Of a stretch of DNA of 39,545 bases, positions 11,742-39,538 are shown piece by piece. Under the pieces are notes generated by a model. That model saw only the letters and a program-made list of their open reading frames with translations, had not been told where the DNA came from and made no database searches. Position 1 is the first letter of the stretch; each line of letters begins with the position of its first letter. The position numbers were made by a program, and so were the translations under genes. The stretch is from positions 1 to 39,545 of IMG/VR virus record IMGVR_UViG_3300020566_000009; one strand, given 5' to 3'. This stretch comes from a virus.

Positions 11742-11789
11742 ATGAAAGGTAAAGGCGGTAAGGGTGGCGGCGGCAAGAAAGGCTGCTGA
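11742..11789 (+). CDS. Tiny Lys/Gly peptide (15 aa)
   Basis: ATG 11742 to TGA 11787-11789 reads MKGKGGKGGGGKKGC, two bases after the preceding stop and coupled to the next gene by a TGATG overlap. The composition is only Lys and Gly apart from Met and a terminal Cys. It may be a real micropeptide or only a coupling leader for the 11789 gene. Too short to judge without comparative data. Confidence 0.4.
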   Translation: MKGKGGKGGGGKKGC

Positions 11790-11932
11790 TGAAACCCGGT
11801 CTATACGCCAACATCCACGCCAAACGTCTTCGCATCAAGAATGGTTCTGGTGAGAAGATGAGAAAGATTGGATCGAGTGGTGCGCCCACTGCGGCACAAT
11901 TTAAGAAAGCAGCAAAGACTGCTAAGAAATAG
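11789..11932 (+). CDS. Small basic protein (47 aa)
   Basis: ATG 11789 overlaps the stop of the Lys/Gly peptide. The 47-residue product begins MKPGLYANIHAKRLRIKNGS and ends in QFKKAAKTAKK. It is Lys/Arg/Ala-rich with no acidic patches. By composition it could bind nucleic acid. Small basic ORFs of this kind sit before the capsid gene in several cyanophages as far as I recall. It is the last gene before the structured leader. Confidence 0.65.
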   Translation: MKPGLYANIHAKRLRIKNGSGEKMRKIGSSGAPTAAQFKKAAKTAKK

Positions 11933-11985
11933 TTCCCGCTAACTCGGGCTGAAATCCACAGTAATGTGGTCACATGTGTGATAGA

Positions 11986-12030
11986 GGCCAGCCCTCTGTT
12001 ACGTCCTTATGAGGCGTATTACGGCTGGTC
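11986..12030 (+). other. Long two-part hairpin before the tRNA-like element
   Basis: GGCCAGCC (11986-11993) pairs with GGCTGGTC (12023-12030) with one G-U pair. Inside it, TACG(T)CCT (12000-12007) pairs with AGGCGTA (12012-12018) across a TATG loop with one bulged T. There is no T-run after it, so it is not a typical intrinsic terminator. Confidence 0.6.
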
Positions 12031-12035
12031 CATCT

Positions 12036-12106
12036 GCTTCCATAGTCTAGTGGTCAGGACATAGGCGACATGCCGAATAGTTCGGGTTCGATTCCCGATG
12101 GAAGAA
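12036..12106 (+). tRNA. tRNA-like element with shortened anticodon loop (degenerate tRNA or mimic)
   Basis: The fold has an acceptor stem GCTTCCA/TGGAAGA with a mismatch at the first pair, and a D-arm GTCT-AGTGGTCA-GGAC. The anticodon-like stem TAGGC/GCCGA has one A-G mismatch and a GACAT loop of only 5 bases. The variable loop is ATAGT, and the T-arm TCGGG-TTCGATT-CCCGA is perfect. D and T arms match tRNA consensus closely (tRNA-Glu/Asp/Gln-like D arm). The 5-base loop has no usable anticodon with U33, and no CCA is encoded. No amino acid can be assigned. It is either a decayed tRNA gene or a tRNA-shaped RNA, perhaps an RNase P/Z processing signal between transcripts. Confidence 0.5.
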
Positions 12107-12202
12107 TTGACTATTGGCCTCCTACGGGAGACAACCTTTAGTCATGACAGTCGGAGAGACGACAACAAAACAACCTTTAATGAACACATGTTTATTCATG
12201 TG

Positions 12203-12220
12203 ATTCTCTAAGCGCTTAGA
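12203..12220. repeat. Perfect 18-bp palindrome upstream of the capsid start
   Basis: TCTCTAAGCGCTTAGAGA is a perfect inverted repeat 33 bases before the capsid GTG, immediately after another hairpin (CACATG/CATGTG, 12184-12201). It could be an mRNA-stabilising stem or a protein binding site. Confidence 0.6.
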
Positions 12221-12252
12221 GAGAACGAACACAAACTTCTCTCTTTACTATT

Positions 12253-13272
12253 GTGGCTAACACTCTTGTTACTCCTGTAGGTCGCGTAAATAATGCGTCG
12301 GCCACTCCTCTTGCTCTTGGTACTGCTTACGATACCAAGTATGCAACTTATCTGAAACTGTTCTCTGGCGAGATGTTCAAGGCGTATGAAAGCGCCACTA
12401 TCGCCAAAGGCACTGTGCAGAGCCGTACCCTGAAGAATGGTAAGGCTATGCAGTTCATCTTCACCGGTCGCATGGAGGCTTCGTACCACGAGCCCGGCAC
12501 CCCGATCCTGGGTTCTGGTGATCCCCCGGTGGCTGAGAAGACCATCGTTTGTGACGATCTGCTGATCAGCTCGGCATTCGTCTACGACCTGGATGAGACT
12601 CTCGCCCACTACAGCCTGCGTTCGGAGATCGCCGCTAAGATCGGCCACGCTCTGGCTGAGGCTTACGACAAGAAGATCTTCCGTCAGATCGCAAAGTCTG
12701 CTCGTGAAGCTCACCCGATTACTGCTGCTCCTGGCCCTGAGCCCGGCGGTAGCGTGATTCAACTGGGTGTGCAGAAAGAGTACGACGCTCAAGCTCTGGT
12801 GGATGCCTTCTTTGAAGCTGCTTCCATCATGGATGAGAAGAACCTGCCTAAGCAGGGTCGTATGGCTGTGCTCTCTCCTCGCCAGTACTACGCACTGGTG
12901 AGCCAGGTTGACAGCAACATCCTGAACCGTGACTTCGGCAACAACTCCGGTAGCCTGCAGTCCGGCGAAGGTCTCTATGAGATCGCTGGTATTCCCATCA
13001 AGCGCTCCAACAACCTACCCTTCCTGGCTGGTACTGTTGCTGCTGTGACCGGTGAGAATAACGATTACTCCGGTAACTTCAGCACCCACTGTGGTTTGAT
13101 CTACCACAAAGATGCCGCTGGTGTGGTTGAGGCCATTGGTCCTCAAGTACAAACCACTGGATCTGATGTTCGCACCATGTATCAAGGTGACATCATCGTG
13201 GGTCGTCTTGCCATGGGCTGTGGCACTCTGAATCCCGCTGCTGCTATTGAACTGCAGTCGGCTCGTTCCTGA
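12253..13272 (+). CDS. Major capsid protein (T7 gp10-like)
   Basis: The HK97-fold shell protein, 339 aa (T7 gp10A 345 aa). Typical segments are KYATYLKLFSGEMFKAYESA, the TGRMEASYHEPGTPILG region, KTIVCDDLLISSAFVYDLDE, YDKKIFRQIAKSA, GRMAVLSPRQYYAL, and a C-terminal IIVGRLAMGCGTLNPAAAIE. It is codon-biased compared with neighbours (more GC-ending codons), as expected for the most abundant protein. The start is GTG 12253 with no clear Shine-Dalgarno; the structured 320-base leader precedes it. It is followed by two small proteins and a terminator, so the unit is transcribed strongly and stopped. Confidence 0.95.
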   Translation: MANTLVTPVGRVNNASATPLALGTAYDTKYATYLKLFSGEMFKAYESATIAKGTVQSRTLKNGKAMQFIFTGRMEASYHEPGTPILGSGDPPVAEKTIVCDDLLISSAFVYDLDETLAHYSLRSEIAAKIGHALAEAYDKKIFRQIAKSAREAHPITAAPGPEPGGSVIQLGVQKEYDAQALVDAFFEAASIMDEKNLPKQGRMAVLSPRQYYALVSQVDSNILNRDFGNNSGSLQSGEGLYEIAGIPIKRSNNLPFLAGTVAAVTGENNDYSGNFSTHCGLIYHKDAAGVVEAIGPQVQTTGSDVRTMYQGDIIVGRLAMGCGTLNPAAAIELQSARS

Positions 13273-38121: not shown

Positions 38122-38472
38122 GTGGTTCTTAAGCAGGTTGTTGATGAAGAGTTGTTACCTCTTTTAGAGGTGATGGCTGAGTTTCGTGCTCTCAGAACAA
38201 GCCTTCCGGCCCAAGCTGTTGCAGCATTTCTCTATATCGCAATCCATGAACGTGTGCTGCAGTCTGATCTTGAGAAAGATCTTAAGATGAGTTCAGCTAG
38301 TGCAAGTCGCAATACGGACATGCTTTCTGATTGGGATAGGCTAGGAAAACCTGGCGCTAACTTAATCAAAAAGGAGCCAGATCCTTTGATGGGTAATCGT
38401 GTGATCCTGTCATTGACTCAGCGTGGTGAACGCTTCTCCCTCACAATCAAGAGGATTCTCTATGGCACATAG
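38122..38472 (+). CDS. Winged-helix (MarR-like) DNA-binding protein
   Basis: 116 aa from GTG 38122. The core is TSLPAQAVAAFLYIAIHERV, then LQSDLEKDLKMSSASASRNT with its helix-turn-helix, and a basic/hydrophobic wing ending RVILSLTQRGERFSLTIKRI. This is the MarR-type winged-helix layout. It directly precedes the integrase and overlaps it by 11 bases, so it may regulate integration or act as an excisionase-like factor (inference). The start could also be an internal ATG at 38173, but that would trim the first helix. Confidence 0.78.
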   Translation: MVLKQVVDEELLPLLEVMAEFRALRTSLPAQAVAAFLYIAIHERVLQSDLEKDLKMSSASASRNTDMLSDWDRLGKPGANLIKKEPDPLMGNRVILSLTQRGERFSLTIKRILYGT

Positions 38473-39538
38473 TCGCACATTTGGTGAGTGTGCAGAGTAC
38501 ACGTTCAAGACTCGTGACTCATGGGTGCGTGAACGCAAGGCTGTTGATGAGTGGAAACGCATTCAACAACTCCCCAAAGACGAGAGACCGAGTGGTATCT
38601 CAAAGCCTTCGATGTTTCGCACTATTCAAGTCAATCATGTGATTGAAATGCGTGGTGCTAGTTACCCAGTCTCCAGGCTTGATCAAGCTGCTGTTACCCA
38701 GCTTATCTTTGAGCTTGAAGATGAACGTAACTGGACATCAAAGGAGACCTGTAACAAGGTTATTGATACCATCCGAACAATCGTCAATCATTGCAAGCGG
38801 CATCGTTTTATTGACGAGGTTCCGTTTGAAGCGTTGGAGATGTTCAGTGGATCGGAGTCACGGTTGACGTGGTTCACGATGTCACAAATGGAGCAACTGT
38901 ATGAGGCTTCATGTAATGTCTTTGGTTACCCGGCGTTGGGAGAGATCTTCCTGACGCTGGGACTCACTGGCATGCGTCTTGGTGAGTTGCAAAAGCTCAG
39001 AGTGATGGACATCGACATACCTAACCTGCGGATCCACGTAGGTGGGCGTGACGGTTTCGTCACTAAAGCCAAAAACTGGCGTGTCCTCCCCATTCAAGAT
39101 CGGATCCTTCCGTTCATGATCGAAAGGACACGTGATCAGCCCCCAAGAAAGCACATCTTTGCCGATGACTTCGGCTCTGCTGATTCGTTACGACGCTCCT
39201 TCAATAAGATTCGCAACTATGTAGGAATTGACGAGAAACACGTCATTCATTCACTGCGTCACAGCTACGCCACATTTCTTAATGAGTCTGGTGTGCCGCC
39301 GATGACCATCAAAGACTTGATGGGTCACAAGCGGATCGAAACCACACTTCGTTACTGCAAGGTTTCGGATGTGGCCCGCAACCAAGCTCACCAGGCCCTC
39401 AACGCTCAGCTCCAGCGAGCCACCCAGCCCGCACCGGAACCCGCTCAACCGTCCTATGACCAGCTCCTGAATCAGGTTAATGCTTTGCAACAATTGCTGG
39501 CTCAGATGCCACAACTAGCTGCAATGACTCGGATCTAA
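38462..39538 (+). CDS. int: Tyrosine recombinase (integrase)
   Basis: 358 aa from ATG 38462. The N-terminal SAM-like/core-binding domain spans about residues 1-130 (DQAAVTQLIFELEDERNWTS). The catalytic domain has Arg in LGLTGMRLGELQ, Lys in VTKAKNWRVLP, the HxxR box in VIHSLRHSYATFL, His in LMGHKRIETT, and the nucleophile Tyr in TLRYCKVSD. The C-terminal tail is Gln/Pro/Ala-rich. An integrase in a T7-like cyanophage is known from marine examples such as P-SSP7 and suggests a temperate or chromosome-linked stage; no attachment site is seen inside the window. Only seven bases follow the stop. Confidence 0.95.
   Translation: MAHSRTFGECAEYTFKTRDSWVRERKAVDEWKRIQQLPKDERPSGISKPSMFRTIQVNHVIEMRGASYPVSRLDQAAVTQLIFELEDERNWTSKETCNKVIDTIRTIVNHCKRHRFIDEVPFEALEMFSGSESRLTWFTMSQMEQLYEASCNVFGYPALGEIFLTLGLTGMRLGELQKLRVMDIDIPNLRIHVGGRDGFVTKAKNWRVLPIQDRILPFMIERTRDQPPRKHIFADDFGSADSLRRSFNKIRNYVGIDEKHVIHSLRHSYATFLNESGVPPMTIKDLMGHKRIETTLRYCKVSDVARNQAHQALNAQLQRATQPAPEPAQPSYDQLLNQVNALQQLLAQMPQLAAMTRI

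Follow-up and report, generated by a model that had tools for sequence, protein, structure and literature searches.

T7 messages are split at RNase III sites, which divide a polycistronic phage transcript and leave structured ends. The capsid gene of T7 (gene 10) is preceded by the promoter phi10 and a short, simple leader, which serve high capsid expression. Syn5 RNA polymerase, in comparison, uses just two promoters, and more than 37 kb are transcribed from one of them (PMC3950665). RNase P is able to process RNAs other than tRNA precursors: tRNA-like structures are its processing sites in bacteriophage M3 RNA, in the C4 antisense RNA of P1 and P7 and in a bacterial polycistronic mRNA, and hairpins made of an acceptor stem, a T-stem and a T-loop suffice for the E. 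coli RNase P RNA (PMC11143913). In animals, mascRNA and menRNA are shortened tRNA-like tails of the long transcripts MALAT1 and MEN-beta, and RNase P cuts mascRNA from its parent MALAT1 by a 5' cut (PMC11693755).

Here we describe a position, referred to hereafter as the slot, in the leader of the major capsid protein (MCP) gene of T7-like cyanophages, at which either a tRNA-like element or an unrelated hairpin (hairpin A) is found. The slot occupies the same place in the genome as phi10 and its leader, but the one T7 record inspected has only that promoter with a short leader and neither a tRNA-like nor hairpin A, which agrees with the remark in the first-pass annotation that T7 has no such leader. 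If cut, the slot would work as the RNase III sites of T7 do; those sites, however, are long duplexes, whereas the slot holds either a T-loop on a helix of 11-12 bp or a hairpin whose 15-nt loop is conserved. The M3, C4 and operon substrates of RNase P are single cases, with no fixed slot before a capsid gene and no exchange with a second element. The mascRNA and menRNA tails share with the slot a shortened tRNA-like within a long transcript, but they belong to animal nuclear noncoding RNAs in which the upstream product is the main RNA, while at the slot it would be the downstream mRNA. The Syn5 slot element matches the full mascRNA-menRNA model (RF01684) with an E-value of 0.011 and 23.4 bits and the element of the window (see below) scores 17.4 bits, neither reaching the gathering threshold of 42.5; the likeness of the Syn5 element to mascRNA is a resemblance only, and no homology is claimed. 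A search of the open-access literature found no published report of a tRNA-like or conserved structured leader before a cyanophage MCP gene, and both hairpin A and the slot with two fillings seem to be new to the literature.

The capsid leader of the window

The window, i.e. the whole stretch of DNA analysed, comprises the 39,545 bases of an IMG/VR virus record and represents a T7-like cyanophage, with matches to head-tail adaptor, scaffold, capsid (MCP), tail, terminase, thymidylate synthase and integrase families, and its nearest named relatives by MCP (tblastn) are the Synechococcus phages DSL-LC07, S-SRP01, S-CBP1, S-CBP3 and S-CBP4. The MCP gene (12253..13272, + strand; PHROG major head protein, E 2e-79, and tblastn) starts with GTG at 12253, without a visible Shine-Dalgarno sequence. 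A small basic open reading frame of about 47 amino acids (11789..11932, + strand) lies outside the slot and ends just 5' of the leader; it is conserved beside the leader in several relatives. The non-coding leader studied here extends between the end of this frame at 11932 and the GTG at 12253.

The 320-nt leader (11933-12252) folds with −100.4 kcal/mol, compared to −81.9 ± 5.5 for shuffles (z −3.35; 0 of 100 shuffles as good). Most of this signal comes from positions 12106-12252, which alone give a z of −4.5 (0 of 200 shuffles as good). At least ten inverted repeats were counted, consistent with the at least seven claimed from a first look at the sequence. On the 5' side of the slot are the + strand hairpins CCCG/CGGG (11935-11948) and CCACA/TGTGG (11956-11969), which occur in leaders with hairpin A as well as in leaders with a tRNA-like, followed by the inverted repeat TCAC/GTGA (11970-11981) and by a larger hairpin, hairpin X (11986..12030, + strand), with an outer stem GGCCAGCC/GGCUGGUC and an inner stem UACG/CGUA. 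On the 3' side are TGACTA/TAGTCA and CTCC/GGAG (within 12108-12144), GTCG/CGAC (12150-12163), the hairpin CACATG/CATGTG (12185..12202, + strand) and the hairpin AGAGAGAA/TTCTCTCT (12218..12244, + strand). The last of these adjoins the start codon and is an alternative structure that competes with the palindrome described below.

Hairpin X is present only in some leaders, all of which carry a tRNA-like. In the window and in L008, L023, L029, L030 and L057 its stems covary and enclose a conserved GUCCUKAUGAGGC; in some of these tRNA-like relatives GCCUAAGC/GCUUAGGC and UAUG/CAUA replace the stems of the window. A hammerhead-like CUGAUGAG within hairpin X of L030 was dismissed as chance, given that its GAAA partner is absent and that the window copy has no Rfam match.

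The slot of the window is filled by a tRNA-like element (12037..12105, + strand), which stands exactly where most relatives carry hairpin A. ARAGORN calls it 'tRNA-Cys(aca)' at 12035-12107 and Rfam RF00005 matches 12036-12106 with 41.2 bits (gathering threshold 29), bearing out the tRNA-like fold that had been noticed. Its acceptor stem (12037-12043/12098-12104, CUUCCAU/AUGGAAG) and T-arm (12082-12098, loop UUCGAUU) are perfect and are followed by a discriminator A (12105). The D-arm (12045-12060), which had likewise been called perfect, has four pairs, one of them G-U. The anticodon arm (12064-12074) is degenerate, and consists of a GGC/GCC stem with the 5-nt loop originally claimed; ARAGORN reads the same arm as a mismatched stem with a 7-nt loop, CGACAUG, lacking U33. 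Either way it is not the arm of a functional tRNA, for which a 5-bp anticodon stem, a 7-nt loop with U33 and a usable anticodon are expected. The helix that runs from the T-loop to the end of the element is 11 bp long (the last A-U pair may be assigned to one or the other of the two stems) and, with the T-loop, has the form of an RNase P/Z substrate, a coaxial acceptor/T-stem of about 12 bp closed by a T-loop. The minimum free energy of the element by itself is unexceptional (z −1.4); its significance derives from the tRNA model score and from relatives rather than from folding energy. Within the same family, the anticodon stem of L026 is weaker still and the anticodon arm of L116 has been replaced, with the acceptor, D- and T-arms kept; judging from these two sequences, the anticodon arm is the part that changes.

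One slot with two exclusive fillings

The MCP of the window recruited 80 IMG/VR loci. A 33-nt hairpin, hairpin A, fills the slot in most of them, for example as GAGCAGGG-CACCTCAGAGTCGGA-CCCTGCTC, and the tRNA-like of the window itself recurs in some. For a census, leaders were collected by protein similarity to the MCPs of the window, Syn5 and P-SSP7, together with named phages and by no other criterion, and 158 distinct MCP leaders of at least 260 nt each were kept. With a canonical tRNA-like defined by a T-loop U[U/G]CRANN, a 5-bp T-stem and an adjoining acceptor stem, 74 leaders had hairpin A, 70 had a canonical tRNA-like, none had both and 14 had neither. The elements sit 110-170 nt 5' of the MCP gene, and canonical tRNA-likes were found in 0 of 1580 shuffled leaders. 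The exclusion of one element by the other gives a Fisher p of 4e-31, but the test treats leaders as independent, which they are not, and therefore the count of exchanges on the MCP tree (see below) weighs more. Inspection by eye of the 14 leaders with neither element revealed variant tRNA-likes in nine and variant hairpin A in two; in two more, L356 and L378, which have an intron-like insert in the MCP gene, hairpin A and a tRNA-like, respectively, stand just before the true leader. With variants and intron-displaced slots included, L342 is the sole leader of the 158 without any slot element. The insert recalls a group I intron, is probably present in L355, L357 and L363 too, and moved the apparent MCP start of L356 and L378 away from the leader.

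The elements are also specific to the slot. On both strands of 892 kb of these loci, hairpin A had 78 copies in the slot and one outside it (the intron-displaced slot of L356), and the tRNA-like had 71 copies in the slot and 7 outside it, one of these being the displaced slot of L378. No antisense slot copies of either element were present in this sequence. Gene order suggests that the tRNA-like copies in the slot lie inside a longer transcript with the upstream genes. The MCP leaders of the pelagiphage HTVC019P, of P-SCSP1a and of T7 contain neither element, which indicates that the slot is a feature of a single broad group of cyanophage-like viruses rather than of T7-like phages in general. 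We regard a fixed slot before the MCP gene with two exclusive fillings as almost certainly real. One locus recruited by DNA pattern, L212, has two slots in tandem, hairpin A and then a tRNA-Trp, each with its own copy of a similar downstream element.

Parsimony on the MCP tree counts 26 changes of filling, of which at least 18 are forced by well-supported branches (FastTree), a count that presumes that the leader follows the MCP tree, while whole leaders may arrive by recombination. Exchange is seen directly in close relatives: the flanks of L021 and L004 are almost identical to those of L001, and one element has been exchanged precisely for the other, so that in L021 and L001 ...ATGTGGT is followed by hairpin A or a tRNA-like and then by ATTGGCACTGG... 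L312 carries an almost identical copy of the cassette of the window, there placed ahead of a very different, S-CBP2-type capsid gene and of another downstream leader, which indicates that the cassette moves between distant phages.

The tRNA-likes are mostly too short for decoding. No more than 55 nt are present in 52 of the 70, which leaves no room for an anticodon arm and rules out a decoding tRNA as the shared role; 13 of the 70 are at least 65 nt long. L069 is a short form with just an acceptor stem and a T-arm, and L030 and L057 are similar. The T-loops read U[U/G]CRANN, many with a G at position 55, unlike true tRNAs. The discriminator is A in 44 and U in 19, and CCA never follows. In contrast to its split between the two stems, which may be 4+7, 5+6 or 6+5, the helix between the T-loop and the end of the element is nearly constant in length (42 elements have 11 bp and 18 have 12 bp, together 60 of 68, under a detection rule that admitted 10-14 bp); this would fit a distance that is measured, as in tRNA. 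When relatives were searched for ordinary tRNAs at this position, a few ordinary-looking ones were found among the mostly truncated forms, namely tRNA-Trp (L023, L123 and L212) and tRNA-Gly (L279). Real tRNAs can thus fill the slot, and charging and use of these could be conceived.

Named phages fall on both sides. Syn5, P-SSP7, S-CBP2 and S-CBP3 have slot tRNA-likes that are unannotated in their records, and P-SSP2 is alike. The Syn5 element reads GGTAG-AGCTGGTGCGCA-GCAGG-GTTCGATTC-CCTGC-CTACC and that of P-SSP7 GAGTA-ATCGGTTAAAGCCGAT-CA-GGGAGG-TGCGAGT-CCTCCC-TACTC. Hairpin A is carried by S-CBP1, S-CBP4, S-SRP01, DSL-LC07 and Cyanophage 9515-10a.

Hairpin A is conserved as an RNA structure. 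In 60 chosen distinct sequences, 92.4% of stem cells are paired and 163 cells are changed on both sides, compared to 37.7 ± 10.7 in shuffles. Covariation is 0.81 (0.30 in shuffles), and every slid register is far worse; inclusion needed a stem of at least 5 bp, a requirement that leaves only the outer four pairs free of bias. The 15-nt loop, CACCUCAGWGUMGGA, is nearly invariant in a set recruited partly by loop pattern, and recruits obtained by MCP only show the same loop. No Rfam 15 match at E ≤ 1 was found for hairpin A or for the conserved leader downstream of it (element B, see below) in the window leader and five further loci. A general phage promoter is an unlikely identity for hairpin A, given its single copy per genome in S-CBP1 and S-SRP01 and its covarying stem. 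Borrowing from a host was rejected as well, as only three exact hits were found in 257 Gb of prokaryote genomes, the one in Prochlorococcus being a T7-like phage contig and the other two MAG contigs; on these searches hairpin A appears nearly confined to phages.

A few copies of hairpin A were seen in other settings. In L292 it stands directly 5' of psbA, without element B. L258, L279 and L248 have an extra hairpin A outside the MCP leader, followed by CCCTTGACC..TTACC. In L230, a 56-kb contig (3300033407_000018) unlike this phage group, the core of hairpin A was found with its stem intact (CCGCCTCGG..CCGGGCGG), which represents either chance or a distant use.

The leader downstream of the slot

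Both fillings stop just 5' of AUUGGC, the start of element B. In the window this conserved structured leader (12106..12164, + strand), recognised by covariation, has an outer helix UGACUA/UAGUCA, the hairpin CUCC-UACG-GGAG, with a YNMG tetraloop, and the hairpin GUCG-GAGAGA-CGAC. Across relatives the outer helix GGCU/AGCC, the YNMG-tetraloop hairpin and GUSG-GANAGA-CSAC are found, and the helices covary. Both hairpins are present in 122 of the 158 leaders; in shuffles the GANAGA hairpin occurs in 31 of 790, a clean control, and the YNMG hairpin in 280 of 790, a weak one. In the MCP leaders of P-SCSP1a and HTVC019P (L456 and L457), a YNMG hairpin followed by GAUACC or GACAAU resembles the core of element B. 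As these leaders lack slot elements, element B may predate the slot.

The 18-bp palindrome reported in the first-pass annotation is indeed perfect (TCTCTAAGCGCTTAGAGA, 12205-12222, no strand assigned). A palindrome of at least 10 bp is found within the last 110 nt of 93% of leaders, compared to 11% of shuffles, and it stays symmetrical although its letters differ between leaders (AAGCGCTT, AGGATCCT, AACCGGTT, AAACGTTT and CCGTCTAGACGG). A self-complementary loop would be superfluous in a plain RNA hairpin, so the element may be a palindrome at the DNA level or serve RNA dimerisation.

A Glutamine-II riboswitch (Rfam RF01704) is present in L084, L085, L214, L255 and L317, i.e. in S-CBP1, S-CBP4, P-SSP7 and contigs, and is absent from the window. 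Like the slot elements it is a structured RNA of that intergenic region in S-CBP1, S-CBP4 and P-SSP7, but it lies 5' of the slot, before a small ORF, and is a separate, already known element.

Processing and other readings of the slot

The first-pass annotation had proposed that the tRNA shape may recruit RNase P/Z to separate scaffold and capsid messages. Pairing is conserved in relatives, where compensatory changes keep it, and the comparative pattern makes processing the best reading: position is fixed, only the sense strand is used, the acceptor/T-arm is kept while the anticodon arm is lost, the element is replaceable and the downstream leader is constant. From the observed structure, position, strand, mutual exclusion, repeated exchange and loss of the anticodon arm we infer cleavage, the enzymes that would carry it out and the gain in capsid mRNA. 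That the slot is an RNA-processing or insulation signal, giving the capsid mRNA a protected 5' end of its own, has in our judgement about an even chance of being correct, on the comparison of sequences made here. According to this proposal, the slot would lie in a late transcript between upstream genes (scaffold, and psbA in many relatives) and the capsid gene. Host RNase P would cut on the 5' side of the acceptor stem of the tRNA-like and RNase Z after its discriminator base, freeing a capsid mRNA that starts at about position 12106 with hairpin-rich element B as a shield, and the upstream message would gain a 3' end of its own at the slot. Hairpin A would do the same job, by way of some factor, in most relatives within the clade of the window. 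Since hairpin A is not a recognisable RNase P/Z substrate, one enzyme cannot account for both forms. We advance a more specific version tentatively, as plausible but open to more doubt: an exclusive slot exchanges two unrelated modules, a minihelix that hijacks host RNase P/Z and hairpin A, a new RNA family served by a different nuclease or by itself, and post-transcriptional control would replace the T7-style capsid promoter. The two promoters of Syn5, set against phi10 before the capsid gene of T7, suggest that cutting at the slot would give the capsid mRNA its 5' end. No Syn5-type promoter (ATTGGGCACCCGTAA) turned up in the window, nor in any of the four MCP regions that were searched.

The slot and element B might instead form a cis-regulatory leader that controls capsid translation without cutting, with a host factor, the ribosome or the capsid protein binding the tRNA-like or hairpin A, or with the element acting as a roadblock that stabilises the 5' end. 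The two lie together just 5' of the MCP gene, whose start has no visible Shine-Dalgarno sequence, the loop of hairpin A is invariant as in protein-binding hairpins, and the hairpin at 12218-12244 could serve as a switch. However, this would require a single protein that recognises two unrelated folds, the retained 11-12 bp acceptor/T helix best suits processing enzymes, and hairpin A precedes psbA without element B in L292, so we hold this possible but doubtful. It is unlikely that the slot is a site of termination or pausing for the phage RNA polymerase, which would lessen read-through to the late genes or insulate AMG cassettes of the psbA type from the capsid gene. The position between gene blocks is suitable and hairpin A is stable, with a T-rich stretch 3' of some copies (CCTCCTTTTCTTTG), but the T run is missing in many copies (CCTGGCTCCTATTGG), a terminator has no need for an invariant 15-nt loop or a tRNA T-loop, and the downstream genes must still be transcribed although no conserved promoter was recognised between the slot and the MCP gene.

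The ARAGORN and Rfam tRNA calls in the window and the intact-looking tRNA-Trp and tRNA-Gly of a few relatives would also be expected if the slot held a decaying host-derived tRNA gene, or a phage tRNA that still works, and if this had no part in the leader. We consider this quite improbable, as decay would not spare the acceptor/T-arm yet lose the anticodon arm in dozens of unrelated sequences, nor would it produce one place, one orientation and exclusion with hairpin A. The leader also has perfect DNA palindromes that are conserved in symmetry and not in sequence, as would be expected of stems that act as DNA hairpins or cruciforms, e.g. in replication or packaging, rather than as RNA; tRNA T-loops, YNMG tetraloops and G-U stem pairs are RNA signatures, however, and the elements are confined to the sense strand of the MCP gene, which makes a DNA role very improbable. 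An attP for integration into a host tRNA gene is scarcely credible. The window does have an integrase gene (38423-39538, family match) and P-SSP7 is known to carry an att site that matches a tRNA, both in favour of this reading, but position rules it out: the integrase gene is more than 26 kb from the slot (12.1 kb). The slot sequence moreover differs among phages, often with no full tRNA, and hairpin A occupies the same slot.

T7-like phages that infect marine and freshwater picocyanobacteria are common; they have very few promoters and much capsid protein to make. An obligatory slot with two modules offers a testable answer, post-transcriptional cutting instead of a promoter. Minimal tRNA-likes escape tRNA annotation and are missing from the Syn5 and P-SSP7 records, and hairpin A forms a sharply conserved RNA family that Rfam 15 lacks. 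The exchange of modules is a natural experiment on the substrate needs of RNase P and RNase Z, and the modules may prove useful as short processing signals in cyanobacterial gene design.
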